From positions 1 to 37,779 of the IMG/VR virus record IMGVR_UViG_3300037628_000094: a DNA stretch of 37,779 nt. One strand, 5' to 3'. This document shows, piece after piece, positions 1 to 36,151 of the stretch (the stretch's first letter is position 1; each line of letters begins with the position of its first letter). Origin of the DNA: a virus. The notes under the pieces are model-generated. The model worked only from the letters and a program-made list of their open reading frames with translations. It was not told the origin of the DNA and made no database searches. The position numbers were made by a program, and so were the translations under genes.

Positions 1-30
1 TGGTATGTATGGCGAGGGGGTAACCCATGA
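1..30 (+). CDS. 3' end of a gene cut by the window edge
   Basis: Frame 1 is open from base 1 for nine codons (WYVWRGGNP) and stops with TGA at 28-30, overlapping the ATG of the next gene as ATGA. This is the same coupling seen between many neighbours here. The frame matches exactly the open frame that leaves the right edge (start 37561, 73 whole codons), so the two pieces would join into one 82-residue protein if the molecule is circular. On its own the fragment is too short to identify. Confidence 0.4.
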   Translation, partial: WYVWRGGNP

Positions 31-326
31 ACCGCAGAGCCCTAATAAAAGCCATACTTTGCAGCCCCTTTGCGTTCTTACTGGGCAAATCCAAGACTGA
101 GGCTGCTTTCGACCCAGAGAAGAGTTACGGGGATGGCGTGGACGTTGGCCCAGATGACGATATATACGAAGCTCGTGGCATTGTGATGAAGAATGCCACC
201 CTTGTCGTCCCAGAGGAGTATTGGGGCGGGATAAGGTTGCGCCAATGGTCGATTTCCCCCATTATCAAGGACGGCAAGGGTGTGATATTTGTTAGTTGGG
301 CTTATACTCCGGAGCCTAAATCATGA
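27..326 (+). CDS. hypothetical protein with signal-like N-terminus
   Basis: A 99-residue protein of unknown function. The N-terminus has arginines and a lysine followed by a short hydrophobic stretch (residues 1-26, beginning MNRRALIKAILCSPFAF), which resembles a weak signal peptide with a Tat-like double arginine. The mature part is acidic and then ends in a mixed beta-like segment. It starts inside the stop of the preceding frame (ATGA) and its own stop overlaps the next start, so it is translationally coupled to both. No family is recognised. Confidence 0.6.
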   Translation: MNRRALIKAILCSPFAFLLGKSKTEAAFDPEKSYGDGVDVGPDDDIYEARGIVMKNATLVVPEEYWGGIRLRQWSISPIIKDGKGVIFVSWAYTPEPKS

Positions 327-2415: not shown

Positions 2416-4407
2416 ATGCCTAACGACGAAACAACTAAATCTGAATTCCACGACGTTTACGAGATAAACCAGACTGCATGGGATCCGTTTCTGGAGCAGG
2501 CGTGTCTCGATAACGACTTTGCCTTGAAAGCCCAGCATTCATGGGAGGAAATGGAACGCGCAAATCGCCAGAACAGGATTCTTCATACGATTGACAAGAT
2601 CGGACGACAGATCAACCTTCTTCACGGCTACGAGATACGAAACAGACACATCCTAAAGATAGGTCCTACGGGAAACTTCGACGAGAACGAGGACCAGGCA
2701 TGCAATCAGCATACAGGCGTAATAATGAGCCAGATGGACCGTAACAACGGCTACGATATCATGTCAAACGCCTTCAGGTGGGGAATACTGGTACAGGGGT
2801 CAAATTTAATAGAATCATGGCGTGACCGTGACGGTATTCTTCAATATGGCAGACTCGGTTACAATCAGTTTTTGCTAGACCACGGACTCACCAAGAGCGA
2901 CCTTTCCGACTGTGGTGACATTCTGACCGGCCAGTGGATTTCCGAAGATAAGGCCAAGATGCTCGTCCCTACCCGCGCAAGTGAGATAGAAGGAATACAA
3001 CCCTTAACCCATTCGAGCAGATGGTCGTTTCAGGGCTCACCTGCAATGCAGAACCGCGCAGGTAAGAGGTTATTTGAGCAGTGGTGGAAACGTGACACTG
3101 AAGAGATTTCCGTAGTCCAGCACAGATTCAACGGCCAGAAACTAACGTTTAAAGAGTTCACGCAACGAACTGCTAATGGCGACAAGAACCTAGCCAATAG
3201 AATCATACAGGAAGCTAAGGCCCCGAACGGCGCACCACTATTGGTAAGATTCAGGGATATCAAAGACAAGATCGTTTTAAAGATATTAGTAGACGACGAA
3301 CTTATATGGGAAGGCGATAATCCCATGAAGATCAGAGACTACAATTATACATGGGTACATGGTATGTTCTGCCCCGAATGCCCAAGAACTGAGTTAAAAC
3401 TTCAGTCATTCGTTAGAGGCCAGCGTGATCCACAGGTAATGTATAACCGTAGAATAAATCAGATTATGGACATTATTGAATCGCAGGCTCAAGGCGTTAG
3501 GGTTACAAGGTCCAAACATCTAATGAATCCTGAAGAAGCTTACAAAAGCGGGCAAGGTATCAATCTTCAAGTTGACCCAGATACCCCTGACCAGCTGCCT
3601 TTGAAAGAAATATTTAACCAATTCCCAGCTTCCGAGGTAGGGCAGTCCTTATTCACCGCATTGGCTGTAATTGACAAAGACGGCACTGAAACAGGGGGTC
3701 TCAATCAAGACATATTCGGCATCGACGATAAGGATAAAGAAATATCCGGCGTGTTGGCACAATTCCGCACAGGACAGGCACTTACAGGACAGGGCTGGAT
3801 GTTCCAGAACCTAAGAGCCTCCAAGCGTGACTTCGGCAGAAAACAAGTCCAGATGGTGCAACTGAATTACGACCCTAATATGGTAAGGAAGATAATCAAC
3901 GAGGAACCGGTAGAGGGTTTTTACTCTGAAGACCTCACAAGATTCGATTGCAACCCAGTTGAAGGACTCTTAACCGACAGCCAGCAGAATATGTACTACC
4001 AGGAGTTGAAGAGTTTAAGGAAAGACTTCCCAGAAGAGTTTGCAGGTGTTATCACTGCCGATATGATAGTTCAGGCTTCGCCAATGCAGTTCAAACTCAA
4101 GACATTAGAAGCTATTAAAAGGGCTGTTCAGCAGAGGTCTCAATCTCAACAGCAACAAGCTCAGTCACAGAAGATAACCGACGAGCTAACTCAGGGACTT
4201 ACCGCTGTCCAGATTTCACAGGCGCAGGAGAACGTGGCCGATGCTCAGGAGAAACGAAGCGAGATTCCCTTAAACAGGGCAAAGACCATAACGGAAATAA
4301 ACAAGAATAGATTTGACCCGATAATCAGTTTACTAAAAGAACAGGTCAGATTAGAAATAGCACAAGAGAGTCAACAACAATTAGCAGGAGCGAACCAAAA
4401 TGCCTGA
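2416..4407 (+). CDS. portal protein
   Basis: A 663-residue protein that fits a podovirus portal, the dodecameric ring at the capsid vertex that docks terminase and tail. Support comes from its place right after the terminase, its length (podovirus portals are often 500-750 residues), and a central segment (GQRDPQVMYNRRINQIMDI, about residue 335) of the kind seen in P22-like portals. The C-terminal 120 residues are rich in Gln and predicted helical, matching the barrel/crown region of long portals. The start immediately follows the previous stop. Confidence 0.85.
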   Translation: MPNDETTKSEFHDVYEINQTAWDPFLEQACLDNDFALKAQHSWEEMERANRQNRILHTIDKIGRQINLLHGYEIRNRHILKIGPTGNFDENEDQACNQHTGVIMSQMDRNNGYDIMSNAFRWGILVQGSNLIESWRDRDGILQYGRLGYNQFLLDHGLTKSDLSDCGDILTGQWISEDKAKMLVPTRASEIEGIQPLTHSSRWSFQGSPAMQNRAGKRLFEQWWKRDTEEISVVQHRFNGQKLTFKEFTQRTANGDKNLANRIIQEAKAPNGAPLLVRFRDIKDKIVLKILVDDELIWEGDNPMKIRDYNYTWVHGMFCPECPRTELKLQSFVRGQRDPQVMYNRRINQIMDIIESQAQGVRVTRSKHLMNPEEAYKSGQGINLQVDPDTPDQLPLKEIFNQFPASEVGQSLFTALAVIDKDGTETGGLNQDIFGIDDKDKEISGVLAQFRTGQALTGQGWMFQNLRASKRDFGRKQVQMVQLNYDPNMVRKIINEEPVEGFYSEDLTRFDCNPVEGLLTDSQQNMYYQELKSLRKDFPEEFAGVITADMIVQASPMQFKLKTLEAIKRAVQQRSQSQQQQAQSQKITDELTQGLTAVQISQAQENVADAQEKRSEIPLNRAKTITEINKNRFDPIISLLKEQVRLEIAQESQQQLAGANQNA

Positions 4408-6167: not shown

Positions 6168-7106
6168 ATGGCTACGAATAACAATATGCACACAACGACA
6201 AGGATTAATCATCCTATCAACATCTTTTACCAGTCTAAGGTGTTGCTTAGGGTTATTGATGCCTTCATATATGTACGATTTGGAAAAGACGACTCGATGC
6301 CCCAGCACGCCGGAGATACTAACAAATGGCGAAGATGGGCTAATCCGGCGGCGCAGGTAGTACCGCTCATTGAAGGCGTTGATCCTGCACCGATTCTTTT
6401 GTCTAAGACTGATATTCAGGTCCAACTGAAAGAGTACGGAGCGTGGATAGTAACCAGTTCGTGGATGACCTTTACTGGCATCACCGATGACGAGAACCAG
6501 ATGTCGGACATCTTACTGGACAACATGAGATTGACCATCGACACGCTCACCAGGGACGTTGCGAGTGGAACAGCATCACAGACTACCGCATCTAACGGTT
6601 CGGGAACGGCTACGTTTATCAATAAGACTGACTTGGATATCATCGTGACTAACCTGCTTAGTCAGAACACTAGAATGATGAAAGACCAGATAACCGCAAG
6701 CACAAAGGTAGCAACATCTCCGATAAGAGCATCATTCATTGGTATCGCTCACGTTGGCGAACGAACCAGACTTCAGAACGTAAGCGGTTTCAAGCATGTA
6801 AGCTCTTACGCGCAGGATAGGGCAATGCCTGACGAATTCGGTTCCACCGACGATATTCGCTGGCTCTTGACGACTAACGCACCACGAACTGACGCAACGA
6901 CCGGATATGAGAATCTTATCTTCGGCCAGGAGTTCTACGGCACAGTTAAGATTAAAGGGAATTCTGCGGCTGCACCACTTATCTTCACACCGAAAGATAA
7001 AGTTGGTTCACCGTTACAGAGATGGACGACCCTTGGCTGGTTGCAGAATTTCGCAGCCGAACTCCTGAATGATAACTTCGGTCACGTACTTCTCTGTACG
7101 GTTTAA
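6168..7106 (+). CDS. major capsid protein, N4-gp56 family
   Basis: A 312-residue protein that builds the icosahedral head. It resembles the N4-gp56 family of HK97-fold capsid proteins: an N-terminal segment ending in FGKDDSMPQHAGDTNKWRR, then PLIEGVDPAPILLSKTDI and QLKEYGAWIVTSSWM (about residues 65-105), then a helix with LLDNMRLTIDTLTRDVASG. The C-terminal half is more variable. It follows the scaffold with a good AAGGAG site, and a decoration-like gene follows. The family call is from pattern recognition. Confidence 0.82.
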   Translation: MATNNNMHTTTRINHPINIFYQSKVLLRVIDAFIYVRFGKDDSMPQHAGDTNKWRRWANPAAQVVPLIEGVDPAPILLSKTDIQVQLKEYGAWIVTSSWMTFTGITDDENQMSDILLDNMRLTIDTLTRDVASGTASQTTASNGSGTATFINKTDLDIIVTNLLSQNTRMMKDQITASTKVATSPIRASFIGIAHVGERTRLQNVSGFKHVSSYAQDRAMPDEFGSTDDIRWLLTTNAPRTDATTGYENLIFGQEFYGTVKIKGNSAAAPLIFTPKDKVGSPLQRWTTLGWLQNFAAELLNDNFGHVLLCTV

Positions 7107-8563: not shown

Positions 8564-8752
8564 ATGGAACATGTAAGAGGAACCGATGTCGATAGCCAGG
8601 ATGCAATAGCTAAAACCTTTAACGACGCTATCGACAACATGAACACTTTAGAGGCCCGTATATTGGAATTGATTGCGGTGAATAAGTCTGTTGAGAAACA
8701 TAACGCCGAGGTCGATAAATTCAATGCAGATGTAGGCTTCGAGAAAGGATAA
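8564..8752 (+). CDS. 62-residue helical hypothetical protein
   Basis: A small protein predicted to be almost wholly helical (about residues 12-55), with an AAGGA site before the ATG. It ends three bases before the next gene. It may be a chaperone-like or structural accessory peptide; nothing more can be said. Confidence 0.55.
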   Translation: MEHVRGTDVDSQDAIAKTFNDAIDNMNTLEARILELIAVNKSVEKHNAEVDKFNADVGFEKG

Positions 8753-8754
8753 TT

Positions 8755-9798
8755 ATGAAAAAGTTTATATTAATACTGATGGCTTGTGCGCTGATAGGCG
8801 TACTTGGTATCAGAAGCCAGGCAACTGTTGATACTACCCAGATCAATTTCAGCACTGTGACATCAGGTACATTTGATAGAAGTCTTCGTGGTTGGGTTAA
8901 TACACTCAATCAGGATATCGTACTAGCAAGTGGAGCTGGAACGCTGGGTTTAAAGTCTGGCGGAACTGTGTATTACGTTGACGGTAATAAGACGACCACA
9001 GGAACTGGTACAGGTGGATGGGACAATGCTTTCAATACCCTATCCGCTGCGATGGCAGTTAGTCACGCCAATATCGGTATAACAGCGAGAAGGGCTTTTG
9101 CATCGAGGAATACTATCTATGTTAGAGCCGATGCTATCACTGAAGATTTAACTACAATGGCTCAGAAGACTGACATTATCGGCGTTGGCAGTAATGATGG
9201 CTACGAGAAAGCTTTAATCGTCGGAACATGGATAATACCTGATACCGTTTCGTACTTAGGCTGTCATTTCTATAATATGCAATTTAGGGATGACGGTGCA
9301 GGTGGTGCTTTATTCGACCTTGATACGCAAAGTGGTACAGAATTTCACGGATGCTTGTTTGATGGCGGTGCAACCGACACCATTGCTTTGCAGGTTGAGG
9401 AATGTCAGTTTCTTAAAGTCATAGGATGTGAGTTTAGTGACGTTAGCCAAACACTGCCTTGGTCGGCATCTGCTATCAAAGTAGTTGATGACACTGACCC
9501 TGTATTTGGCTATCGGATCTCAGGTAATACAATTTCAACCGCGGGTATTGGCATTGACTTTGACGAAACTGTATCTGCTAATTGTTGGATTACTGACAAT
9601 TATATTCGCGCAACAGGTTTAACTATTGATGACGAAGGTGACGACGTGTTTGTTATAAACAATCGTCTAATCACGGATGTCGATACTACAACCTCTACAG
9701 CCGGATATGGCTTTAATATTCAGTTATCCGCTGGAAATATCCAAATGGGCGTTACTGGATTAGGTGATACCATACCGTTCGCGAAGATTGCAGAGTAA
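8755..9798 (+). CDS. exported right-handed beta-helix protein (adhesin/tailspike-like)
   Basis: A 347-residue protein with a classic signal peptide: MKK, a hydrophobic core ILILMACALIGVLGI, then a likely cleavage after SQA (residue 23). The mature part has a GGTVYYVDGN start and rows of short beta-strands with turns (for example YLGCHFYNMQF, FHGCLFDGG, VIGCEFSD), typical of right-handed beta-helix proteins that bind or cut surface glycans. It has a strong AAAGGA site. A signal peptide is unexpected for a phage structural protein. A terminator follows. Confidence 0.7.
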   Translation: MKKFILILMACALIGVLGIRSQATVDTTQINFSTVTSGTFDRSLRGWVNTLNQDIVLASGAGTLGLKSGGTVYYVDGNKTTTGTGTGGWDNAFNTLSAAMAVSHANIGITARRAFASRNTIYVRADAITEDLTTMAQKTDIIGVGSNDGYEKALIVGTWIIPDTVSYLGCHFYNMQFRDDGAGGALFDLDTQSGTEFHGCLFDGGATDTIALQVEECQFLKVIGCEFSDVSQTLPWSASAIKVVDDTDPVFGYRISGNTISTAGIGIDFDETVSANCWITDNYIRATGLTIDDEGDDVFVINNRLITDVDTTTSTAGYGFNIQLSAGNIQMGVTGLGDTIPFAKIAE

Positions 9799-9804
9799 TT
9801 TAAC

Positions 9805-9831
9805 GGGGAGGCTTAGTCCTCCCCTATTTTT
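9805..9831 (+). terminator. rho-independent terminator within the structural block
   Basis: GGGGAGG at 9805-9811 pairs perfectly with CCTCCCC at 9818-9824 across a six-base loop, followed by TATTTTT. It lies ten bases before the next ATG, so it probably acts as a partial terminator that lowers expression of downstream tail genes relative to capsid genes. Confidence 0.75.
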
Positions 9832-9840
9832 GAGGTTATT

Positions 9841-10923
9841 ATGCCATTAACATGGACAAGAGAAGAAATCAGGGACAAGTTTCGGGAACTCACCGGCAGA
9901 AAGACTACCGATCAGATATCCGATAGTGATGTTAACGACTTGATCAACGATTACTATGTGAACCACTTCCCCGGCGATGCTAAGGTAGATGAATTCGATA
10001 CATTCTTCACACAGGCTCTTTCAGCTACCGATGACGGCATTTACGCTCTTGACAGTACTGTGGACCGCTTTGACGACCCTGTGACGATTAACGGCAGGCA
10101 GATAGAGTTCTCAAGGCAAAGAGAAGAGTTCTTCGGAACGGACCATGATCGACACCATCATCATTTCAACTTCTTCGGGGTACGTACAACTTTCCTCCAG
10201 CATCAGTTTATTGACGAACAGTTCATAACTGCCCCTACGTTAGTGATAGGTTCTTCTGATAACACCAAAGTTAAACACAGCGACTTCACGTACAAGGTTC
10301 AGGACTTCTCATATTCAAAGGCGTCTAGTGAGGTTGCTTTGACTGGAAGTGCAATACCACAGGGCAAGTTCGGGGCATGGAGTTTGAAGATAGACACAGA
10401 TGGTGATATCGCCGTTGCTGCTGCTGTAGCTAATTCTACGGGCTACGACACTCCCAGAATAGCATTGGAAGCTTTGAACAGTTCAGACTCCACTACAGCT
10501 TATATGGGTTATGTAACTGTAACTAAGTCAGACGGGGCTTTCACGCCAGCTGCTACGGCCTTAGACGCATCAAATGTAACTGCAACCTTTACAGACGGTA
10601 AGTTCGAGAACAGGGGCGAACCTATAAGAGCTTTGCTTTATGGTACTAACCTTTACGTCGATCCCAAGCCGAATGATATTTACGAGTTCAAAGCATTGCA
10701 GATAGCAGATAGGCCAACGGCCTTTGCAAGTGATTCAGATAAACCCGCTGACCCGAAACATGGGCCTGCGATAGCATTAGGAACGGCTATGATATTTTTA
10801 AGTGATAACGGAGACACGGAGAAGTTGGCAGAGCAATCGCCAAGATCGAGAACGCTTAAAAATTCAATAAGGTCAGATAAGGTAAAACGCCTATTAGGCA
10901 CGGTAATAGTAAGGAGCTCTTAA
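9841..10923 (+). CDS. putative head-tail adaptor / tail protein
   Basis: A 360-residue protein whose first 40 residues (TREEIRDKFRELTGRKT, SDSDVNDLINDYYVNHFPG) resemble the N-terminal helical pair of phage adaptor proteins such as P22 gp4-type head-completion factors. The remainder is beta-rich with a His cluster (HDRHHHHFNFF, about residue 101). In podoviruses such a ring joins portal to tail. The distance from the portal gene is larger than usual, so confidence is moderate. Confidence 0.5.
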   Translation: MPLTWTREEIRDKFRELTGRKTTDQISDSDVNDLINDYYVNHFPGDAKVDEFDTFFTQALSATDDGIYALDSTVDRFDDPVTINGRQIEFSRQREEFFGTDHDRHHHHFNFFGVRTTFLQHQFIDEQFITAPTLVIGSSDNTKVKHSDFTYKVQDFSYSKASSEVALTGSAIPQGKFGAWSLKIDTDGDIAVAAAVANSTGYDTPRIALEALNSSDSTTAYMGYVTVTKSDGAFTPAATALDASNVTATFTDGKFENRGEPIRALLYGTNLYVDPKPNDIYEFKALQIADRPTAFASDSDKPADPKHGPAIALGTAMIFLSDNGDTEKLAEQSPRSRTLKNSIRSDKVKRLLGTVIVRSS

Positions 10924-13206
10924 ATGAAACGATTAATAATATTTTTGTTATTATGTTCAACTTGTTTTGCCGTGGGAACCAGAAGGTATTCCGCAAAGGA
11001 CTTCGTTGTGGTTAATCCAGGCAATGGATCAGCGGTACAAGGTGCTATCAACAGTCTTCCCCCCACGGGCGGTACGGTCTATCTCAAGGCTGGCCTCTAC
11101 CCGTTCTCGCAAGCGGTCTTAGTCCCCAGCAATATCCACGTCACGGGCGATCCTAATGCACTGGTGAGAATGGATGACGGCGTAGATGACATAGCTTTCA
11201 CTAATGATGATCGGGTTAATGGCAATGTGAATATTTGGTTCAGTGGATTCACTCTCGACGGTAACAAGGAAACAATGTCGGATGACAACTTTGCAACCGT
11301 GCTGGCAAAACATACCGGCGCTTCTGGTGCTGGTATTGGTACGATTGATTTCCACAAGGTCGAGAATTTACGCATAGAAAACATGACTATTTTAAATGGT
11401 TATGCTTCTGGTATTGAGGTTCAGTTTTGCAGTAACTTCTTTATTAACAATAATAAGGTTAAGCGAGCAGCGGATGACGGCATAGCAATAAACAGAATTT
11501 CTTTTGACGGCACAGTAACGGACAATGCAATTCTTGAGTCTGGATTGGGGACTATTACAAACGATGGCACATCGGGGCTTGAGGTCCAGGATGGTTCACA
11601 TCATATAACAGTAAAGGGTAACAGTATTACCGACTCAAAGACTTTAGGCATAACAGTTTCAAACCATGAAGATGCTAATGGTTGTTTCGATATAACAGTC
11701 ATAGGTAATTCTATTCGTGGCCTGACCCATACAACTGGTATTGAAATCACGGGGCAAAATAACAATATACTTATAACGGCTGTCAGCAATGGTTCTTCCA
11801 CAATATCTTACGGTAATGACAGCGTGGACAGGTCTAAATTTTTTATTCCTGGTAATAAATTCAGAGTACATCAGTCGGATAATAATAATGGTTACTGGAT
11901 AGTACAGAGTGTGGCATTCTCCGATCCTGATACAGTGATAACATGCGTAAGAGTTGATGATGGTTCTGCCCCAACCGAAGGAGGTAATCTTGGCAGGGTA
12001 TGGGCAGGTCAGTTCCAACAGCGAATTGTAGTTGCTGATAACAGTATTGAGAACCTTTCAACTTCTGTTGCGAATGTGGGTATCACCTGGGGTTACTTAA
12101 CTGATTGCCAGATAGTAAATAACACCATTAACAATAACTATTCAGCTATAGAAACGGAAGCAGACAGCCACAGCGAGCGCATGATAATATCGGGGAATAC
12201 AATGTTTGCACCCGATGGGCAAGCCACTCATGCCGCAATAGAGTTTTTGACATCAACGGCAGCATGGGATATGCAATTTAATAATAATACAGCTCAGGGG
12301 TATAATCCTTACTTTCTCAGAATACCCTCAACGGGAGGAGCTAGTTATTATGATGGTTTAACCTCAAGGGGTAATTACCACGAAGGCATAGGCGCTAAGA
12401 ACGGTTTCCTTATACAGAACGACATTTTCAATGTTATATTATCCAGCAATAGCTTAGTCACTGACAGGGAAGCGATATGGATTCAAAAAGATATCGTTAA
12501 TGGTTTGATTTCTAATAACATGATTTTGAACGACCAGTCCAGCAACGAGAGAATTGGAATATCCTTTGCATCTGCCGAGGCATACGACGAGGTCATAGTC
12601 ACTGATAATATAATAAATGATTATGGCAGAGGTGGGATAAATCTAAATGGAACATGGACTAATGGGATTGTTTCAGGAAATTATATTGGTGATGCAATAG
12701 GGTCCACATCGTCAATTTTTGCCCCTATTATGTTTATGAGTGGTTTTCTTGGCACTAATGTCAGGTTATCAGACAACATCCTTGAAGGCACTAATTCAAC
12801 ATTTGACCAAGTATCTTCGACCGCTGACGAAATGCCGGACGGGGTATCGACATCTGGTAATGAAGTTTACAACAAGCGGGTTCTTACAGGCACAGCTAAC
12901 ATTGAAGCCGACGACAATAATAAAAACTACCAAGTGGATTGCACTTCATTAGTAACTGCCAATCTACCTCCTGCTGTAGTGGGTTTGAGATATCCCTTCA
13001 ACGTAACCGTAGGCACGAACGATCTCAGGCTCAATCCTGACGGCTCAGAGTTTATATATCTTCCTGACGGCACACTTCCAAATGTTGCCGGTGACTATAT
13101 AACAAACGGAACGGCTAACGCCGCCTTCGATCAAATAATTGTAGAATGTACTCAACCAGGTCGTTGGGTGACTTATGCCGCAATAGGCACATGGACAGAA
13201 GAATAA
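10924..13206 (+). CDS. exported right-handed beta-helix (pectate-lyase-like) protein, tailspike candidate
   Basis: A 760-residue protein with an N-terminal signal peptide (MKRLIIFLLLCSTCFA, cleavage likely after CFA). Residues 35-60 (VQGAINSLPPTGGTVYLKAG) are the hallmark start of pectate-lyase-like beta-helix tailspikes. About 500 residues of short repeated strands follow, many with Asn turns (for example FFINNNKVKRA, IVSGNYIG). The last 100 residues form a separate beta domain. The likely role is host polysaccharide binding or depolymerisation. AAGGAG precedes the start. The export signal is anomalous for a virion protein. Confidence 0.75.
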   Translation: MKRLIIFLLLCSTCFAVGTRRYSAKDFVVVNPGNGSAVQGAINSLPPTGGTVYLKAGLYPFSQAVLVPSNIHVTGDPNALVRMDDGVDDIAFTNDDRVNGNVNIWFSGFTLDGNKETMSDDNFATVLAKHTGASGAGIGTIDFHKVENLRIENMTILNGYASGIEVQFCSNFFINNNKVKRAADDGIAINRISFDGTVTDNAILESGLGTITNDGTSGLEVQDGSHHITVKGNSITDSKTLGITVSNHEDANGCFDITVIGNSIRGLTHTTGIEITGQNNNILITAVSNGSSTISYGNDSVDRSKFFIPGNKFRVHQSDNNNGYWIVQSVAFSDPDTVITCVRVDDGSAPTEGGNLGRVWAGQFQQRIVVADNSIENLSTSVANVGITWGYLTDCQIVNNTINNNYSAIETEADSHSERMIISGNTMFAPDGQATHAAIEFLTSTAAWDMQFNNNTAQGYNPYFLRIPSTGGASYYDGLTSRGNYHEGIGAKNGFLIQNDIFNVILSSNSLVTDREAIWIQKDIVNGLISNNMILNDQSSNERIGISFASAEAYDEVIVTDNIINDYGRGGINLNGTWTNGIVSGNYIGDAIGSTSSIFAPIMFMSGFLGTNVRLSDNILEGTNSTFDQVSSTADEMPDGVSTSGNEVYNKRVLTGTANIEADDNNKNYQVDCTSLVTANLPPAVVGLRYPFNVTVGTNDLRLNPDGSEFIYLPDGTLPNVAGDYITNGTANAAFDQIIVECTQPGRWVTYAAIGTWTEE

Positions 13207-13218
13207 AAGGAGTAAATT

Positions 13219-13854
13219 ATGAAAAGATTATTGATTTTGGCAATATTGGCTTTAATGGCAAATGTCGCATTTTGCGCAAATACAGAAGTTGTCCCTAAAG
13301 ACAAAGATGGGGCAAGGGTTGACCCTGGCCAGTTGCACACAGTGACGAACACATGGACTGTTATAGATACTACTGACAGTAGCGGTCTTGAACCTAACGA
13401 CTTAGCGGTAACGGAACGAACTTATCAAACAGCAAAAGCGGCGGCAGAAGGCGGGGACGCTGAAATATCGTTTTTCGATGTACCCAGAAGCTGGAATGGA
13501 CTAAGACTAAGGGCGATAGGTATAACAGACGATGGCACAGCAACATATCAAATATATCTAGGCACATTAGGTGACGGAAACAAAGACGACGATTCTACAG
13601 CAGAAGATTGTGAGTTGGCTTACTTAGGTCAGTTTGTTTTTACTATAGGCACTCAGGCATCAACTACAAGTACCTACGAGATGGCTGATACCTTGTCTAT
13701 AACAGCATCAGATTGGGGAGATACACCAACGGCAAAAAGCCCAGCGGGAAACAGAGTTGCAACGGGCAAGGTTGATCTTTTGGGAGCAGACTTGATAGTA
13801 GCAGTACCAACCGTGGTAACTGCTGACTGCAAACTATTAGGGAAGGGATTCTAG
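13219..13854 (+). CDS. exported beta-rich hypothetical protein
   Basis: A 211-residue protein with a signal peptide (MKRLLILAILALMANVAFCA, cleavage likely after FCA). The mature part is Thr/Asp/Gly-rich and beta-predicted, with no recognised fold. It has an AAGGAG site, and its TAG overlaps the GTG start of the next gene. It sits among tail and adhesin genes with similar leaders, so a role at the virion surface or the host envelope is likely. Confidence 0.65.
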   Translation: MKRLLILAILALMANVAFCANTEVVPKDKDGARVDPGQLHTVTNTWTVIDTTDSSGLEPNDLAVTERTYQTAKAAAEGGDAEISFFDVPRSWNGLRLRAIGITDDGTATYQIYLGTLGDGNKDDDSTAEDCELAYLGQFVFTIGTQASTTSTYEMADTLSITASDWGDTPTAKSPAGNRVATGKVDLLGADLIVAVPTVVTADCKLLGKGF

Positions 13855-14681
13855 TGATACGAAAAGGTCTAACCTTAGTAATAGTTTTGATTTTGATAGT
13901 TATTTTCGTCCTTGGCTTACGTGACCGTTACGGTAATCCTGGACAATTCCACGGAGATATTAACGTCGACGGCATGGCTGTTATCAAAGGCTACGGTGAC
14001 GGCGGATATACCAATTACGACCTTGAAGTTGGCATTATTCCCGATTATGGAATGATGTGTTTAGGGAATTTCGCACTTGGCATGACATCGTTTGTTAATG
14101 GCAATATAGACCTGGATGGTGCGGTGATGTTTAGAAATATAGCAGGTCCCGTCTCTGGAGATATAGAATTTATATGGGTAGAATCCGGTGGCGGTTCGAC
14201 AAGGTTTGCCCTTCCAAAATCCGGAGTTGGAAATGCAACGTATAATCCAAGGTCAATGCTAATTGCAGGTCCGGCGCCGACTGATACTAACATGGTAAAG
14301 GTCAGCTATTGGCAGGGTAATGGTATATTCCATAATCTCGTTTGCGATACCAGTGGTATAGGAGCAGACTTTGGAGTCCAGAACGACTTAGAAGTAGAAG
14401 GCGATATATTTGTTGACAGTATAAAAGAAAGTACCCCAGACGCGGGGATTGCTATTGACTGCAATATGGTAATTACAGGCACGCTAACAGTTACCGGCGA
14501 TCAATCAGGGGCGACGGACCACGTATTCGATGACTATGACGATATTGAGTTGTTGAGGAAGTGGCGTACAGGAGAAGAGCTTCCTTTTGAAAGAGGCGAT
14601 CTGCTCAATCAGGACAGGTTGCTTAGAGATGCTATTATTCAATTACAAGAACAGATAGATTTAATAAGGAAGGGTTTCTAA
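13854..14681 (+). CDS. membrane-anchored fibre-like protein (GTG start)
   Basis: A 275-residue protein starting at GTG 13854, preceded by GGAAGGG and overlapping the upstream stop. Residues 5-21 (GLTLVIVLILIVIFVLG) form a strong hydrophobic anchor without a clear cleavage site. The body has repeated short strands with 'GDI..DG' patterns (GDINVDGMAV, GNIDLDGAV, GDIFVDSI), as in fibres, and the last 45 residues are a probable coiled coil. Its TAA overlaps the next ATG. Confidence 0.6.
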   Translation: MIRKGLTLVIVLILIVIFVLGLRDRYGNPGQFHGDINVDGMAVIKGYGDGGYTNYDLEVGIIPDYGMMCLGNFALGMTSFVNGNIDLDGAVMFRNIAGPVSGDIEFIWVESGGGSTRFALPKSGVGNATYNPRSMLIAGPAPTDTNMVKVSYWQGNGIFHNLVCDTSGIGADFGVQNDLEVEGDIFVDSIKESTPDAGIAIDCNMVITGTLTVTGDQSGATDHVFDDYDDIELLRKWRTGEELPFERGDLLNQDRLLRDAIIQLQEQIDLIRKGF

Positions 14682-15619
14682 TGGCCTTTAATAAAGATAT
14701 ACCAACAGCCGGGACTTCTCTAAGGAACTCCAATCCTCAGATATTGGCCAATCAGTCTCAATTACAGACTGCTATTAACAACGAGCATATCTTCAGTGGA
14801 ACATCTGCTGGTACTCAGACAGGCGACCATACTCAAGGCTCGGCCAGATGTTTCTCTCAGGCAGGCGCACCAGCTACGAGGATTGATGGTAACGGCTTCT
14901 TGTCTACAGACTTAGGTTCGCTATGGGTTGATACCGACGACAACGCTGTGTATATCCTGACGGCCACTACACCGACGTGGACGCCTGTGTCTACAGAGAT
15001 AATAGCGACCTTACTCGCCGCCGCCAGAGTCTTTGGCGATACTTTAGGCGTTACGGGAGATTTTGCTGTCAATACGAACAAGTTCAACGTAACCGCTACA
15101 AATGGAAATACTACTGCTGCTGGTACTTTAGAAGCTACGGGATTAACTACGGTGGCCGATGGTTCCCTTACCAAGACAACTGCGGCCCCTTCGGCAGATG
15201 CTGAAATAGCCAATAAGAAATATGTGGATGACCAAATAACTGCTATAACGAAAGGGTATCATGCAGGGACATTGACAGTAGCAGGCGTTTCTGTTTCTGT
15301 TGCAAACACTTTTGAGGATTTGGATTTATCTGGTGCGGGCGGGCCTGGGGCAAATGCCGCCCTTGTATTCTTAAGAGTTGCCAACACCACAGCCGCAGGT
15401 AACGGAGTCCTGCTATTGCGGCCCAAAGGTGAAACCGAACCTGCATCTGCACGACTTGTACAGGCACAAGATAGTTCCGGTATTAGTTCGGCAAATTTCG
15501 AAACTAATAATGATGTATGTTACTTAATGTGCATCACTGATTCGTCTGGGGTTATAGAAATTACAGCCGATAACGCAGGTGCAGTATTTACGTTTAAAGT
15601 AATAGCATATATCCTTTAA
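14681..15619 (+). CDS. tail fibre-like protein
   Basis: A 312-residue protein without a signal peptide. It has features usual in phage fibres: an N-terminal polar helix, a 'GSLWVDTDDNAVYILT' strand pair near residue 88, repeats of 'LEATGLTTV' type strands, and the motif ANKKYVDDQI (about residue 176) common before fibre trimerisation regions. It overlaps the upstream stop (TAATG) and has an AAGGAAGGG site. It is likely part of the receptor-binding apparatus. Confidence 0.65.
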   Translation: MAFNKDIPTAGTSLRNSNPQILANQSQLQTAINNEHIFSGTSAGTQTGDHTQGSARCFSQAGAPATRIDGNGFLSTDLGSLWVDTDDNAVYILTATTPTWTPVSTEIIATLLAAARVFGDTLGVTGDFAVNTNKFNVTATNGNTTAAGTLEATGLTTVADGSLTKTTAAPSADAEIANKKYVDDQITAITKGYHAGTLTVAGVSVSVANTFEDLDLSGAGGPGANAALVFLRVANTTAAGNGVLLLRPKGETEPASARLVQAQDSSGISSANFETNNDVCYLMCITDSSGVIEITADNAGAVFTFKVIAYIL

Positions 15620-15634
15620 TTAAGGATTAAATTA

Positions 15635-17719
15635 ATGCCACTATATAAACCCTTTGCAGTCATGGACATACGAGAAGGCGTTAGAACCGACCTTGAGCCG
15701 TGGAAGCTCCCCGGCGATGCTTGGCAGACGCTTAATGACTGTTCGTTGCGCAAGGGGGTATTATTTAAGAGATTTGGTAAGACACTGTTCGGGCAAGTCG
15801 TAGCTACCAATACTGCTACGCAGGTCCCTACGCTTCAAACTAATCCCGTGATGGGTATATACAACTTTCTTGACGGTGCTACTGAGAACCTTGTCGTATT
15901 CGACCAGAACAGGATGAACACCACAGTGACAACGCCCGTGACGGGTGTTTCGATAGATGGAGCCTTTGCAGACGGTGGAGGTGGACAAGTTGTTGTCAAT
16001 GCTACTGGTCACGGATTTTCTGACGATGATGTTATAACTATAAGTGGAACGACTAATTATAATGATACTTACAGGGTACAGAACAAGAACGCGAATGACT
16101 TTGAAATAACCGAGACGTTTAACGCAGAGGGGGCGGGCGGAACTATTAAGCAGGAACGCTTTGAGGACGCTTCAAAGAGTCAGATACGCTACGTAGGCAA
16201 AGCAGGGCAGAACTATACCCCTGCCGTAGATGACGTTGTTAAGGGGGAAGATAGCACCGCCATAGGCACTGTAGAGAAGCTTATAGTCGATACTGGAACT
16301 ATTGCAGGCGATGACGCCAGAGGAACGATAATATTCAAACGCGGTACAATTACCGGAACCTTTCAGGACAACGAGGAACTTCAGGAAAACGGAACTCCAG
16401 CCAATATAGCAGGCCAATCTCAAGGCGCGGCATCAGATGGAGCGTTCACCGGTGATAATACGAATTTCTTCTGGGTAGCTAACTGGGAGCTTGGCGGTTC
16501 AAGTAGAATGTATATCACAAATAATAATGACCCATTGCAGAAATATGACGGGGTGGTGCTTTCAAGGCTCACGATTGACATAGGCGACGACGATGATGTT
16601 AATGACGTCAACTCTGCGCTTTTAATTTTCATAGTCAAAGAACGGATAGTCATATTCAGTGTAAACGAGGACGGTACAGATTTTCTTCAACGTGCCAGAT
16701 GGAGCGCTATTAAGGAACCCCAAAGCTGGCCTACTGCTAATTTTGTAGACGCGCCAACCGAAGACACTATCAAAGGCGGAAAGTTCATAGGTGACGATCT
16801 TTATATCTGGATGCGTAAGAGTGTATGGCGATTTGCTTACACCGGAGACGTAACAACACCGTTTGAATGGGAGCGAGTAGATGACTTTGAAGGCGCAGAG
16901 GCCCAGATGAGCATAGCGGTCAAGGACAACCTCCAATACGCAGTAGGCAAGTCAAGACTCCAAATAATGGATGGCAGAAGGGTTTTGCCTGCCGATCTTA
17001 AAATACCCGACATTACACAGGACTGGGTGCAAAACTCGGTGTTGTTTAGTAATGCTCTGGTCGTTGAAGAGGAACGGCAGATAATAACATCCTACGCAGC
17101 CAGTGGCGCTCCAGCTCATGTTGACGGCAATATTTACCCTAATAAGTTATTGATAAGAAACTACGAAGATCAGGGCTTCTCTAACCATACCCACGATGTT
17201 CATACTATGGGCAAGTCTGAAATAGGTTCTGACGTTACATGGGAGCAGGACTTGTCATGGACTGATATTGACGATCCGTGGAATGCAGGATCGAACGAAG
17301 CTGGTTTCCCCACAACTCTTATAGGCGACCACGATGGACTAGTTTTACAGTTAAATACAAGCGGTTCTGATAATGGTTCGGATATATCCTTTAGTGCAAA
17401 AGGTGCAAGGCTAAACCCATTTATCAAGGACGGCAAGGATGCTTGGTTAGAAAAGATAGACTTCTTCGTAACTGTAGATGCAAGTGCAAGTTTTGATGTC
17501 GATAGCTTTATAAATACAAGTTCAACTCCGTATCAGACTAAGACTATAACAGCCACTGCAAAGAAAGGGGCATCTTCTAAAGCATGGCACACAGTCTTTA
17601 TGAATGCGTTGGGTAACGAACATTCTATAGAAATAGGTAACGATGCTTCAAACAACAGACCTATAATTCACGCTATGATATGGTGGTTCAAGCCGGGTGC
17701 GAAAGGAAGGTTTAATTAA
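15635..17719 (+). CDS. large tail / hub protein (beta-propeller candidate)
   Basis: A 694-residue protein with an opening (DIREGVRTDLEPWKLPGDAW then LNDCSLRKGVLFKRFGKTL) of the sort found in podovirus tail-tube B / gp10-like stabilisation proteins that cap the packaged head. A domain at about residues 85-145 (VNATGHGFSDDDVITISGT) resembles inserted beta modules. The region 270-420 has blade-like repeats with Trp and Tyr. No signal peptide is present. It is assigned by resemblance and position; a beta-propeller fold is expected but not shown. Confidence 0.6.
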   Translation: MPLYKPFAVMDIREGVRTDLEPWKLPGDAWQTLNDCSLRKGVLFKRFGKTLFGQVVATNTATQVPTLQTNPVMGIYNFLDGATENLVVFDQNRMNTTVTTPVTGVSIDGAFADGGGGQVVVNATGHGFSDDDVITISGTTNYNDTYRVQNKNANDFEITETFNAEGAGGTIKQERFEDASKSQIRYVGKAGQNYTPAVDDVVKGEDSTAIGTVEKLIVDTGTIAGDDARGTIIFKRGTITGTFQDNEELQENGTPANIAGQSQGAASDGAFTGDNTNFFWVANWELGGSSRMYITNNNDPLQKYDGVVLSRLTIDIGDDDDVNDVNSALLIFIVKERIVIFSVNEDGTDFLQRARWSAIKEPQSWPTANFVDAPTEDTIKGGKFIGDDLYIWMRKSVWRFAYTGDVTTPFEWERVDDFEGAEAQMSIAVKDNLQYAVGKSRLQIMDGRRVLPADLKIPDITQDWVQNSVLFSNALVVEEERQIITSYAASGAPAHVDGNIYPNKLLIRNYEDQGFSNHTHDVHTMGKSEIGSDVTWEQDLSWTDIDDPWNAGSNEAGFPTTLIGDHDGLVLQLNTSGSDNGSDISFSAKGARLNPFIKDGKDAWLEKIDFFVTVDASASFDVDSFINTSSTPYQTKTITATAKKGASSKAWHTVFMNALGNEHSIEIGNDASNNRPIIHAMIWWFKPGAKGRFN

Positions 17720-17720
17720 T

Positions 17721-18029
17721 GTGGATAAACTTCCCGTGCAGAAAAAGTTTGAGTCAGGAGAGGCAGAGGAAAAGAAATGGCCTGGATGGTTTGAGAGAGT
17801 GCTTTTGTGGCTCGAAAAGGAAAACTTTTACAAGATATCCAAGCGGATAAACTTTTTACTAAGCAGGGTAAATAATAATAAACTGGAAATAGTAGCAGAT
17901 GGGAATACAGGCGAAGGCCAAGATGGCAACTGGAAACTTACAACTGACGCCAGTGGAAACTTAATAATACAGGAAAATATATCAGGGACATGGACAGATT
18001 CAGGATGGAAATTAAAAAGATCGCCATAA
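17721..18029 (+). CDS. small tail-region protein (GTG start)
   Basis: A 102-residue protein. The GTG at 17721 is chosen because AAGGAAGG lies about ten bases before it; an ATG at 17719 is in another frame that closes after about 43 codons. The N-terminal half is basic, Trp-rich and helical (EEKKWPGWFERVLLWLEKEN). The C-terminal half looks like a short beta module (DGNWKLTTDASGNLIIQ) seen in fibre proteins. It overlaps the next gene by 40 bases. Function is unknown. Confidence 0.55.
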   Translation: MDKLPVQKKFESGEAEEKKWPGWFERVLLWLEKENFYKISKRINFLLSRVNNNKLEIVADGNTGEGQDGNWKLTTDASGNLIIQENISGTWTDSGWKLKRSP

Positions 18030-20434
18030 TATTAATGTTGCTTTGCAGACTTTGTTTCGGCCTGTCAGAAATAGAGCATGGCGCAGATGTGAATATGACT
18101 GCTGATGGTGCGCAGTTGATATTTCACAATAACTCCTTCTTGGTATCGTTAGCAGCCCCAAGTGGTCTATCTGAAAACACGCCAATTAAATTACCACTAA
18201 CTGATGGTAGTGCAAGCCAAGTATTATTCACTGATGGGTCTAATCAATGGGGTTGGACAGATGTAAACGCAGTAGCAGGAACGCACAGTATATTGTCGGT
18301 AACTCACGACGACACAACACCTTCAGTGGTTTCGCAAGGTTCTATACTGGTTGGCGATGGTACTCCTAAGTGGATTGAACGTGTATTAGGCACAACTAAT
18401 AAATTCCTAATGAGCGATGGTTCTGATGCTGACTGGTCATTCATTGACATATCAGACAGTACGAACCTGTCTGTAAATACGGCGCATTTCAAACTCACTG
18501 ATGACGAGATAGACTTCTCAGATTTTCAAGAAGAGAACATCCACGTATGGCAGGGATCGTTCAATGAACAGATAGACTTTACTATTACCGAAGCAGGAGG
18601 AACGGTAACGGGAAACTTGGAGAAAGAAGGCGGTGGTGATCTCACAATGTTCTTCTCCGACGAGTACACCGTTCTTGACTGTACTGCCCCGTTATGTACT
18701 GTAGATTTAACAGCCCTCGTCGGGACAGATACGGCTCCTGCGGAGGCTTTTATTTATATCCTGCAAAGCGATAAAATATTAAGAGCGGCTAGTTCATGGC
18801 CTGCCGAGAACTTAGAACATATAAGAGTAGCCAAAGCCATACTCCAAAGCGCAGTTACTACCGGCACGGACGGAGCTTTAGGTAATAGGAACTGGAATGA
18901 CTTTGCTTTTGGCATCACCGATCCAAGGGGGCACGGCCTTCACATGGCCCAGAGGATAAGGGCGGAACATGCCAAGTGGCTATCGGGCGTAGCGCTTACG
19001 GTGACAGGCAGTGGAACATCTACTATAACACTAGACACTTCGGCAGGCGAAGTTTACCAGTTGCATTTACAGGCATTTCCAACTATTGATATGGCGGGCG
19101 CTGACGATATACATTTAGTGAATCTTTCGGGAAGTGAGTATTCAACATCGGTCAATATGGTGGCTGACATAACGACATTAGCTGACGGTAGTACGCCGTT
19201 GGCGAATAACAAGTATTTCAACATTGTAGTATGGGGCGTACAAAACAGGAGCGGGGAAACTTCCCACTTGCTCTGTAATCTGCCAACCGGCCAATACAAT
19301 ACATCCCTTGGCGGCACTACCGACCCTACAAAGTTCTCGGTCCATACCATACCATCCGGTTTCGTTGGAACAGGATTTCTCATAGCAGAACTTACTTTCC
19401 AACTCACTGGCGGGGGTACTACGTGGACGCTGATACAGAATAAGGACTTATTAGGACAAACCCCAACTCTCGTTCCAGGCGGTGGGACGACATCTAATAT
19501 TACTATATTCTCCGATAGCGAACTTGAGTTATTCGATAACGGCGACGCTACTAAAAGAATGAACTTTCAGCTTTCCAGCATAACAACTGGCAACACAAGA
19601 ACAATCACAATGGCTGACAGGGATTTGGATTTAGACTCTCCTACCTTTACATCGTCAACCATGATAGGCGATATGTCAGCCGATACCTTCACTCACACAG
19701 GCAGCACGCAGGATTATATCTTTGAAGATAGACTAGACGCTTTGGCCATTCAGTGTCAGACATCTGCCGATAACAGTACGATTGAACTTTATACCGCTGA
19801 CGGCGATGGTACTGACAATGCCCAGATTCATCTTTACGCAATGGGCACGCCTGGCGACGTAAATAACAGGGAGAGATTGTTATTACAGCAAATGCCCGCC
19901 ACGTCTGACATCTGGACAGAAGAAGCCGGAACAGGGGTAACAACTGACTTAAGGTTATATACTGAGGGCAGTACCGGCCAATTAACTCTTGAAAACGGTG
20001 GCGATGTAATTATGTCTACGACTTACCAGAATGCGGTAGGTGGTACTAATCACGCTTTGTTTATTGATAACACCGGCCTTATCGGCGAAGATCCATCAGC
20101 CGCGAGGTTTAAAGAAAATATAAGGGACTATGATTATACTAACGTCATTAATAATTTAAGGGTGGTCAAGTATGACCGTAAAGACGGTTCTACTATTGGC
20201 CGAGTTGGGTTGATCGCAGACGAGGTTGCGCTGATACTTCCGGAAATTGTCAGCTTTGAAAGAATACCCATCAGGGAAGATATTTACCGAGAATCTATCG
20301 ACTGTAATGTTAGTGAGATAGTTGGTTACACGCAAACGGAGATACCATTCGCAATAGATACCATAAAACTAATTCCTTACATGATCAAGGAAATACAGGA
20401 ACTAAGAAAAGAAATTGATGAACTAAAGAAATAA
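17990..20434 (+). CDS. exported tail fibre with C-terminal peptidase S74 chaperone domain
   Basis: An 814-residue fibre. The N-terminus has a signal-like segment (IKKIAIILMLLCRLCFG). The start could be ATG 17990 or ATG 18005, the second giving a more normal leader. The middle is beta-rich and resembles fibre shafts. The last 120 residues match the intramolecular chaperone domain of peptidase S74: the catalytic Ser and Lys lie in DPSAARFKENI (about residue 700), then GRVGLIADEVALILPEIV, and a final coiled coil (IKEIQELRKEIDELKK). This domain trimerises the fibre and then cuts itself off. Confidence 0.75.
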   Translation: MDRFRMEIKKIAIILMLLCRLCFGLSEIEHGADVNMTADGAQLIFHNNSFLVSLAAPSGLSENTPIKLPLTDGSASQVLFTDGSNQWGWTDVNAVAGTHSILSVTHDDTTPSVVSQGSILVGDGTPKWIERVLGTTNKFLMSDGSDADWSFIDISDSTNLSVNTAHFKLTDDEIDFSDFQEENIHVWQGSFNEQIDFTITEAGGTVTGNLEKEGGGDLTMFFSDEYTVLDCTAPLCTVDLTALVGTDTAPAEAFIYILQSDKILRAASSWPAENLEHIRVAKAILQSAVTTGTDGALGNRNWNDFAFGITDPRGHGLHMAQRIRAEHAKWLSGVALTVTGSGTSTITLDTSAGEVYQLHLQAFPTIDMAGADDIHLVNLSGSEYSTSVNMVADITTLADGSTPLANNKYFNIVVWGVQNRSGETSHLLCNLPTGQYNTSLGGTTDPTKFSVHTIPSGFVGTGFLIAELTFQLTGGGTTWTLIQNKDLLGQTPTLVPGGGTTSNITIFSDSELELFDNGDATKRMNFQLSSITTGNTRTITMADRDLDLDSPTFTSSTMIGDMSADTFTHTGSTQDYIFEDRLDALAIQCQTSADNSTIELYTADGDGTDNAQIHLYAMGTPGDVNNRERLLLQQMPATSDIWTEEAGTGVTTDLRLYTEGSTGQLTLENGGDVIMSTTYQNAVGGTNHALFIDNTGLIGEDPSAARFKENIRDYDYTNVINNLRVVKYDRKDGSTIGRVGLIADEVALILPEIVSFERIPIREDIYRESIDCNVSEIVGYTQTEIPFAIDTIKLIPYMIKEIQELRKEIDELKK

Positions 20435-29400: not shown

Positions 29401-29477
29401 TTATGAAGTGCAAGAAATTAAGAGGCTACATTGAAGCACAGTTATTTTCTTACTATATGAGAATGAAAGGGATGAGA

Positions 29478-30068
29478 ATGAAATACTTAGGTATTTTAGC
29501 GATTATGATATTCAGCTTTTCACTAGGAGTACTTACCCACGATTGTACAGAATACACAAACATCGCCACGGAACGGGAAACTAGTATGGAGACGGCCACT
29601 ATGGAGGGCGGATCGGGGGCGGAGGCCCCCACTTGTTATCATTCACGAATCAGTGAGTGGCAAGAATGGCAGAATATATTGTATGACTCTATTGGGTGGC
29701 TTGATTTCAGGTGTTACGATAGATTGATAGATGCCATTGAATGGGTTGAATCCGGCTGTGATTCTAGTGCCGTTGGTGATGATGGAAAAGCCGTTGGAGC
29801 TTTTCAAATTCACAAAATTTATGTTGATGAAGTCAATAGAATCATTATTAAGAATAAATACCGCATACCCACATTCAGATACGAAGATCGTTTATGCAAT
29901 AATATGAGTCGAGTAATGGTTTATATCTATCTATCAGAATTCGGGAAGCATTCATTGCCTGACAAGTTGGAAATAGCAGCCCGCATCCACAACGGCGGGC
30001 CACAAGGCTACAAAAAAGAGTCGACCAAAGCTTACTGGGCGAAGGTTAAGGAAAGGTTGGAGAAATAA
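29478..30068 (+). CDS. endolysin (lysozyme-like) with N-terminal membrane segment
   Basis: A 196-residue peptidoglycan-degrading enzyme of the lysozyme-like superfamily. AIEWVESGCDSSAVGDDGKA (from about residue 86) has the catalytic Glu, followed by VGAFQIHKIYVDEVNRI, and ARIHNGGPQGYKKESTKAYW near the end; this set is common in phage lysozymes. Residues 1-20 (MKYLGILAIMIFSFSLGVL) are a signal anchor, possibly a signal-arrest-release type. Start 29478 is chosen for its AAGGGA site; in-frame ATGs at 29403, 29457, 29463 and 29472 are also possible. Its TAA overlaps the next ATG. Confidence 0.8.
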   Translation: MKYLGILAIMIFSFSLGVLTHDCTEYTNIATERETSMETATMEGGSGAEAPTCYHSRISEWQEWQNILYDSIGWLDFRCYDRLIDAIEWVESGCDSSAVGDDGKAVGAFQIHKIYVDEVNRIIIKNKYRIPTFRYEDRLCNNMSRVMVYIYLSEFGKHSLPDKLEIAARIHNGGPQGYKKESTKAYWAKVKERLEK

Positions 30069-35299: not shown

Positions 35300-36151
35300 A
35301 TGAAAGCAAATGAACATAGATTAAATAAAGCTCTCGCTGACCTCCAAGAAAAAGAGCCCTGCAAAGACTTCCAAAAAGAAGTCGGAGAATGGGGAGATAG
35401 AACTTTTAACCCAGATGGCCACAATGTAACAACAGGAATAATTTGCCATTTAGAAAAAGAGGTTGACGAACTTCAACAAACTGCGAATCCCACAGAAGCC
35501 GCCGATTGCTATATATTGCTGTTGCAGTTAGCTCACAATCTAGGATTTAATCTTGAACATGAAGCTCGCCTGAAAATGAAAATCAATTATAAACGTAAAT
35601 GGGACAAGCCTGACAAATTTGGCGTAGTTGAACATATCAAAGAGCCCTGCTCAAAGCCAGATCAGCCAGATTGTAACACTTGTGAAGATGAAAAATATGT
35701 CAGAAAATACATGGATTGTTTAATACCATGCGCAAAGGATGTATTAGGCAGTTTACCCTGCCCCGCCTGTAGCAAGCCAGCACAGGAGCAAGGGGACACG
35801 GCGGCGTTTGTGAAAGAGTGCAATGACGTACTTGATAACTGGAAATCCAATAGATACTCACCTGCTATATGGTGCTTATGTCAAGCAATAATCCGTATAG
35901 AGGATTATGAGGAAACTCTTAAAAATTCAGTTGAGATCGTAGAGCGTGACCAAGAATGGCAACAAGAAGATAATGCAGAGATAGCCCAACTGCGGAAAGA
36001 TTTGAAGTGGTATGGGATGCACAGGCCGCGTTGCAATACTCGTTTTACTATCGACAAGCCCTTTATGAAGAAATGTGACTGTGGCTACGAGCAAGCCTTG
36101 CAACCCCAGCCCAAATCCCCGCCAAGCAGTGAGAAAGAAGGTGAGAAATGA
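35300..36151 (+). CDS. DUF550-like nucleotide pyrophosphohydrolase fused to a Cys-rich domain
   Basis: A 283-residue protein. Residues 20-105 (FQKEVGEWGDRTFNPDGHN, ICHLEKEVDELQ, ADCYILLLQLAHNLG, KMKINYKRKWDKP) match the all-alpha, MazG-like DUF550 family that hydrolyses dNTPs; E and D residues for metal binding are in HLEKEVDEL and ADCYILL. The remaining 180 residues have Cys pairs (CNTC, CPAC, CDCGYE) and a helical segment, which are not part of the usual domain. AGGAG-type site upstream. A role in host nucleotide control is likely. Confidence 0.7.
   Translation: MKANEHRLNKALADLQEKEPCKDFQKEVGEWGDRTFNPDGHNVTTGIICHLEKEVDELQQTANPTEAADCYILLLQLAHNLGFNLEHEARLKMKINYKRKWDKPDKFGVVEHIKEPCSKPDQPDCNTCEDEKYVRKYMDCLIPCAKDVLGSLPCPACSKPAQEQGDTAAFVKECNDVLDNWKSNRYSPAIWCLCQAIIRIEDYEETLKNSVEIVERDQEWQQEDNAEIAQLRKDLKWYGMHRPRCNTRFTIDKPFMKKCDCGYEQALQPQPKSPPSSEKEGEK

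Follow-up and report, generated by a model that had tools for sequence, protein, structure and literature searches.

Why do several tail proteins of a podovirus begin with what look like export signals, when tailed-phage assembly is taught as cytoplasmic throughout? The question is raised by IMG/VR record IMGVR_UViG_3300037628_000094 (37.8 kb; "the window" below means this whole stretch of 37,779 nucleotides), a podovirus with a P22-type portal. In its tail block (8564 to about 20434) an original prediction from the sequence had picked out five proteins that begin with a signal peptide or membrane anchor, starting at 8755, 10924, 13219, 13854 and 17990, and all five open reading frames are indeed present in the late operon and have hydrophobic leaders (Table 1). 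The leaders are very probably real and conserved in the family, and the explanation favoured here is that they would be Sec signal peptides added before the ordinary fibre proteins of a P22-portal podovirus lineage. The loci compared are metagenomic contigs, and all evidence comes from sequence.

A positively charged n-region followed by a hydrophobic core opens each of the five proteins, which are the only ones with clear N-terminal leaders in the tail block; the adaptor, hub, fibre C, portal and capsid of the window have none. The leaders of 8755, 10924, 13219 and 17990 (proteins are named by their start positions) look like Sec signal peptides. That of 13854 (MIRKGLTLVIVLILIVIFVLGLRDRYGN, GTG start) is better read as a membrane anchor: a signal-peptidase site is not clearly recognisable, and the small residues at -1 and -3 that would precede a conserved mature start were not found in this protein. 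The prediction of a signal peptide or anchor on each protein thus stands as Sec-like for four and as an anchor, not a signal peptide, for the fifth. Four of the leader reading frames start with ATG and one with GTG. Shine-Dalgarno matches span 5-6 bases for 8755, 10924 and 13219, 4 for 13854 and 3 for 17990; there is no upstream in-frame start for any of the five, and a strong Shine-Dalgarno sequence with a later start that would drop a leader occurs, within the first 70 codons, only at codon 29 of 10924. The lipobox cysteine of lipoproteins such as the superinfection-exclusion type (Llp/Cor) was not seen in the five leader proteins (pattern scan, by eye).

Leaders were called by a rule that asks for a net positive n-region and an uncharged core of 8 or more residues and sets a threshold on hydropathy. 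It recovers 28 of 34 Escherichia coli signal peptides and gives a positive call for 2% of shuffled tail proteins. Of the 9 tail proteins tested in the window, 5 are called, which is far beyond chance given the rate in shuffles. Across 16 loci, i.e., the window and 15 relatives found via the adaptor gene, leaders are present in 61 of 138 tail-block genes as against none of 74 head genes (Fisher test, 1.7e-14), and the adaptor carries one in 0/16 loci. The same rule gives 0/44 for the structural genes of P22, T7, and epsilon15, and 3/32 for a Pelagibacter podophage.

The relatives include the same proteins with and without a leader, and the leaders appear from this to be add-ons, placed at a fixed point in front of ordinary phage fibre proteins. 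In fibre C without a leader, Met stands directly before an A[FW]DK..PA motif, and in fibre C with one, Gly or Ala ends the leader at that place. Thus, the protein starts M-AFNKDIP or M-AFDKDKP in the window and in loci L044 and L047, and the leader ends in Gly or Ala right before AFDKDKP, AWDNNLP etc. in L040, L042, L045, L049, L051, L052, and L054; in L046 and L048 an extra stretch separates leader and motif. According to a scan of the mature domain covering 35 loci, the leader-bearing forms break at the same residue, and the leaderless ones have Met directly or a few residues before the motif, usually with a good ribosome site. Six sister phages (L095, L099, L101, L105, L106, L107) share the gene order and have fibre C and hub without a leader, the adaptor being also leaderless where one was called; the L099 fibre C matches tail fibre families. 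Family D, a beta-rich protein of 130 residues after the adaptor, occurs in both forms as well, with E values between them down to about 1e-26 by profile comparison. A hub leader is present only in L052 (TTG start) and L079, and in L052 the match of the hub to phrog_3287 (virion structural protein) begins at residue 29, past the leader. The possibility that some fibre C genes yield a second product from an ATG at -2 was considered and rejected, ribosome sites there being absent or weak. In L043/L082 (one contig) a leader-bearing fibre C now lies 3' of a 631-residue protein following a gene like that at window position 20447, and no longer at its usual site 5' of the hub. The tail block of L079 also encodes a leaderless fusion of a metallophosphoesterase and a lectin domain (Laminin_G_3; L079:3047-4738).

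In an alignment of fibre A anchored on the mature start (TDIN..), 16/16 proteins have Ala, Gly or Cys at -1 (P 5e-10 by chance for -1 alone, a figure flattered by the visual choice of the cut position) and 16/16 a small or aliphatic residue at -3, and 15/16 have a bulky one at -2; the predicted signal-peptidase site is therefore textbook. Essentially all loci examined in two fibre A scans have the leader in front of the mature domain. In fibre C, where the cut position is set independently by the leaderless orthologues, -1 is Gly or Ala in 15/15, and a small residue stands at -1 in 31/31 members of families A and C. Export leaders on virion-type proteins had been pointed out as unusual, and comparison bears this out in the form of conserved Sec leaders, compatible with signal peptidase I, on appendages.

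The small coil cistron upstream of fibre A lacks a stop in about half of the examined relatives and continues in frame through a lysine-rich linker into the leader and fibre A. Most read-through forms keep in the linker a Shine-Dalgarno sequence, embedded in lysine codons of the coil cistron, together with a start codon (ATG, GTG or TTG) immediately 5' of the leader, and the short product of leader and fibre is thus probably still produced. The internal start also supports the leader start of fibre A. Two products are possible from a read-through coil gene (window 8564-8823; L110-L123, L134, L137), and the long coil-leader-fibre form is a possible membrane-tethered protein.

On a hub tree of 24 rows, rooted at the midpoint and with a moderately supported deepest split (82/69), the leader-bearing fibre C lineage comprises 18 rows, three leaderless ones included, and the six leaderless sisters fall outside. 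The fibre C leader takes at fewest 4 changes on this tree, e.g., one gain and three losses; the adaptor tree needs at least two leader changes, and the trait is conserved down to about 44% adaptor identity. The leader trait therefore appears to be old, retained over deep divergence and lost gene by gene, and no recent accident.

In the favoured explanation, the leader proteins would be virion tail appendages (beta-helix and S74 fibres, and small beta-domain proteins) that are routed by their leaders through the host Sec translocon late in infection. Signal peptidase I would cut most leaders, and the mature fibres would reach their folded, trimeric form in the periplasm. Capsid, portal, adaptor and, in most cases, the hub would be built in the cytoplasm and packaged with DNA there; lysis would mix the two pools, and the fibres would dock on the adaptor or hub via the same conserved N-terminal segment as in the leaderless relatives. 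Tailspikes attach to finished P22 heads in vitro. A virion role is supported by the mature segments of leader-bearing proteins being the same as the N-termini of leaderless fibres, and the mix of appendages within one phage fits independent late attachment better than assembly of a whole tail outside. The locus comparison argues for leaders that are real, restricted to the tail block, exactly placed, conserved in their cut sites and repeatedly switched. Export and cutting in the host are likely. That the exported proteins join virions at lysis may be the case, at somewhat below even probability, and the whole chain from export and cutting to periplasmic folding and docking at lysis is offered tentatively, as having somewhat less than an even chance. 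Two-compartment assembly in the general form, with DNA-filled heads in the cytoplasm and a large part of the tail exported (the hub included in two phages), the parts being joined at lysis or by docking at the membrane, is possible, at clearly less than even probability.

Several points weigh against the export and late-docking explanation. The presence of the leader proteins in virions is judged from gene position, the S74 domain and leaderless orthologues. Leader-bearing and leaderless appendages occur together in the window, L044, L047, and L049, and export is therefore not required for every appendage. The hub leader in two phages fits poorly with retention of the DNA, unless the hub too can be added late. 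In fibre C, -3 is permissive in only 8/15 leaders and often bulky, so that cutting is less certain there and may be poor. The leader-bearing proteins have 7.6 cysteines per 1000 residues compared with 5.6 and 6.6; a disulphide rationale for export was rejected because cysteine content is not notably raised.

Other explanations place the leaders differently. They could be accidental, from miscalled starts or chance hydrophobic stretches, as the weak Shine-Dalgarno match (3 bases) at the 17990 start might suggest, but their rarity in shuffled proteins, their absence from head genes, their conservation across the family, the exact junctions and the good ribosome sites refute this as a general explanation and leave it with almost no probability. 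Some podoviruses have hydrophobic virion segments that insert into membranes at entry, and the leaders might in the same way stay on the virion protein and insert into the host envelope at DNA delivery, being no export signals. This is quite improbable, since they combine a positive n-region and a core with a small -1 residue in families A and C, stand on fibres and small beta proteins and not at ejection-protein positions, and would be expected to be recognised by the signal recognition particle and Sec during translation.

Export and membrane assembly were both named in the original prediction, and they are the right kinds of explanation. In membrane assembly, uncut or slowly cut leaders would hold the proteins in the inner membrane and tails would be built there, with capsids on the cytoplasmic and appendages on the periplasmic side and the coil-leader-fibre read-through protein as a tether. 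The uncut-type anchor of 13854, anchor-only cistrons of about 87 residues between fibre genes in L040, L046, and L048, the coil read-through in about half of the examined relatives, which could give an N-in, C-out membrane protein, and the poor -3 residues common in fibre C leaders are all consistent with this. It is nevertheless unlikely in view of the apparently textbook fibre A cut sites (16/16), the internal ribosome site and start retained in most read-through forms, from which the short form is probably still made, and leaderless orthologues that assemble without an anchor. Exported proteins might instead stay off virions as free fibres in the periplasm or outside, where they would act as adhesins or would cover or degrade receptors, which might, for example, keep progeny from being lost to debris or to the infected cell. 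Several of them carry lectin (Laminin_G_3) or depolymerase-like domains, and relatives encode in the same block an O-antigen ligase family protein and proteins with lipoprotein- and Tat-like leaders, which argues that these phages act on the envelope. Free fibres are likewise an improbable outcome, because leaderless versions hold the same fibre position in sister phages, the L099 one matching tail fibre families, and the leader-bearing hub of two phages has no obvious envelope role. The proposed adhesin display or change of the host surface finds no specific support: no surface anchor, autotransporter or sorting domain was found among the window proteins by Pfam, and the same mature fibre domains stand at the very N-terminus of phage fibres that lack a leader.

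P22 and other podoviruses (Lederbergvirus and kin) have in common with the window a P22-type portal, an ERF recombinase and the late-gene order portal-scaffold-capsid-adaptor-hub-fibres; unlike in the window family, the structural genes of P22, T7, and epsilon15 are without Sec leaders. The host protease OpdA removes 20 residues from gp7 according to the P22 record, and this leader is of a different kind from those of the window. Mosaic adhesive trimer (MAT) fibres of Bdellovibrio have a signal peptide followed by a beta-rich fibre, with S74 domains in many, and are surface-displayed (PMC10769870). They show that a phage-like S74 fibre can be exported and still fold (PMC10769870). The 17990 protein combines a signal peptide and an S74 domain, as do members of the MAT superfamily, which are further marked by a conserved beta domain of ~130 residues behind the signal peptide; 17990 is not assigned to them as a member. 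MAT fibres are cellular predation proteins, whereas the window genes are part of a phage late operon, next to those of adaptor and hub, and leaderless orthologues in phages exist for some fibres of the window family. PblA and PblB of Streptococcus phage SM1 are tail proteins that also reach the cell surface, via phage holin and lysin; unlike for the window proteins, the review mentions no Sec leader (PMC7600539). The T4 antiholin RI, a signal-bearing phage envelope protein (PMC8385771), spanins and signal-arrest-release (SAR) endolysins are late phage proteins that use host Sec, but are lysis proteins and not virion appendages. Within titles and abstracts, and with partial coverage of the literature, no paper surfaced that describes Sec leaders on tail proteins as the trait of a lineage.

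Table 1. Tail-block proteins of the window, their leaders and two head genes.
Feature	Position	Strand	Remarks
Small coiled-coil-like cistron	8564..8752	+	62 residues; directly 5' of fibre A
Fibre A	8755..9798	+	347 residues; Sec-like leader and probable beta-helix
Predicted signal peptide of fibre A	8755..8823	+	MKKFILILMACALIGVLGIRSQA, cut before TVDTTQIN; cut site aligned over 16 homologues
Protein in head-tail adaptor position	9841..10923	+	leader in 0/16 loci
Beta-helix protein	10924..13206	+	760 residues; Sec-like leader; Pfam PF13229
Predicted signal peptide of 10924 protein	10924..10971	+	MKRLIIFLLLCSTCFA, cut before VGTRR
Small beta-rich protein	13219..13854	+	211 residues; Sec-like leader; orthologues also leader-bearing
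Predicted signal peptide of 13219 protein	13219..13275	+	MKRLLILAILALMANVAFC, cut before ANTEV, possibly one residue later
Fibre-like protein	13854..14681	+	275 residues; GTG start; putative N-terminal membrane anchor, no clear cleavage site
Fibre C	14681..15619	+	312 residues; no leader (MAFNKDIP...); most relatives leader-bearing; natural control
Tail hub	15635..17719	+	no leader in window; phrog_3287 (virion structural protein) via L052 and sister-phage orthologues
Small tail-block protein	17721..18029	+	overlaps start of S74 fibre
S74-chaperone fibre	17990..20434	+	814 residues; Sec-like leader; PF13884; PHROG tail fibre
Predicted signal peptide of 17990 fibre	17990..18061	+	MDRFRMEIKKIAIILMLLCRLCFG, cut before LSEIEHG; ATG at codon 6 is an alternative start keeping the leader
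S74 intramolecular chaperone domain of 17990 fibre	20096..20251	+	PF13884, 31 bits vs cutoff 22
P22-type portal protein	2416..4407	+	head gene, no leader; PF16510, E 3.6e-36, nearly whole length
Major head protein	6168..7106	+	no leader; phrog_1357

Two of the five proteins had been called beta-helix proteins and one an S74 fibre. The Pfam matches in Table 1 confirm 10924 and the S74 fibre at 17990, for which there was no sequence match in PDB. For 8755 the beta-helix is probable, judged by an AlphaFold model of low confidence and by weak matches to tailspikes in Foldseek. The models of 8755 and 13219 are poor (mean predicted local distance difference test scores of 54.7 and 53.3), and Foldseek searches with them gave no E below 0.001 and were used as hints only.

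The head genes of the window comprise terminase, P22-type portal, a gene in the scaffold position, major head protein and a decoration-like protein, and ERF recombinase and YqaJ nuclease are encoded further on. No match to portal, adaptor, hub or 22708 was found by tblastn against cultured phages (50,697 phage records for portal and adaptor). Capsid and portal gave a single match in GTDB genomes, for the portal (28%), on a 12 kb contig of a Zixibacteria metagenome-assembled genome; the genes present there are without leaders. Outside the tail block, the window encodes a probable signal-anchor endolysin that would itself use host Sec, namely a lysozyme-like protein (29403-30068; Destabilase, just below cutoff) whose N-terminus bears a hydrophobic segment, and a dATP/dGTP pyrophosphohydrolase domain (35300-36151; PF04447) with a possible tie to modified DNA bases.

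Some neighbouring genes of the relatives also point to the envelope. Polytopic membrane proteins with Wzy_C (O-antigen ligase type) and C-terminal TPRs are encoded between fibre A and adaptor (L046:8502-9986, L047:8419-9993, L077:1436-2914), and genes alike by their N-terminus lie at L045:848 and L048:8507; serotype change or glycosylation of exported fibres is a possible function. Phage-encoded glycosylation of the exported fibres was considered for these genes and not adopted, because such a gene is missing from the block in the window and in several relatives that bear leaders. Small proteins with twin-arginine-like leaders (MNRRSFLK, MKRRSFLK, MNRRALIK) are encoded in the window (27-326) and in relatives, where they lie mostly in the portal-scaffold interval (G004 12720, i.e., L046:3201; G012 34938, i.e., L052:3800; G011 9456; L054:3745; L065:5963). 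The same interval holds small lipoprotein-like genes (L043:2484, L053:3452, L055:3471, G001 44180, G005 4837), some of which share a W...FGN.N motif and are superinfection-exclusion candidates.

If the favoured explanation is true, virion assembly in this lineage would take place in more than one compartment, and where and when the fibres attach could be tested directly. The same fibre with and without a leader provides natural pairs for studying what is gained from export. Possible gains include folding, the keeping of fibres and enzymes from intracellular sugars, less loss of progeny on debris, and action on the envelope before lysis.

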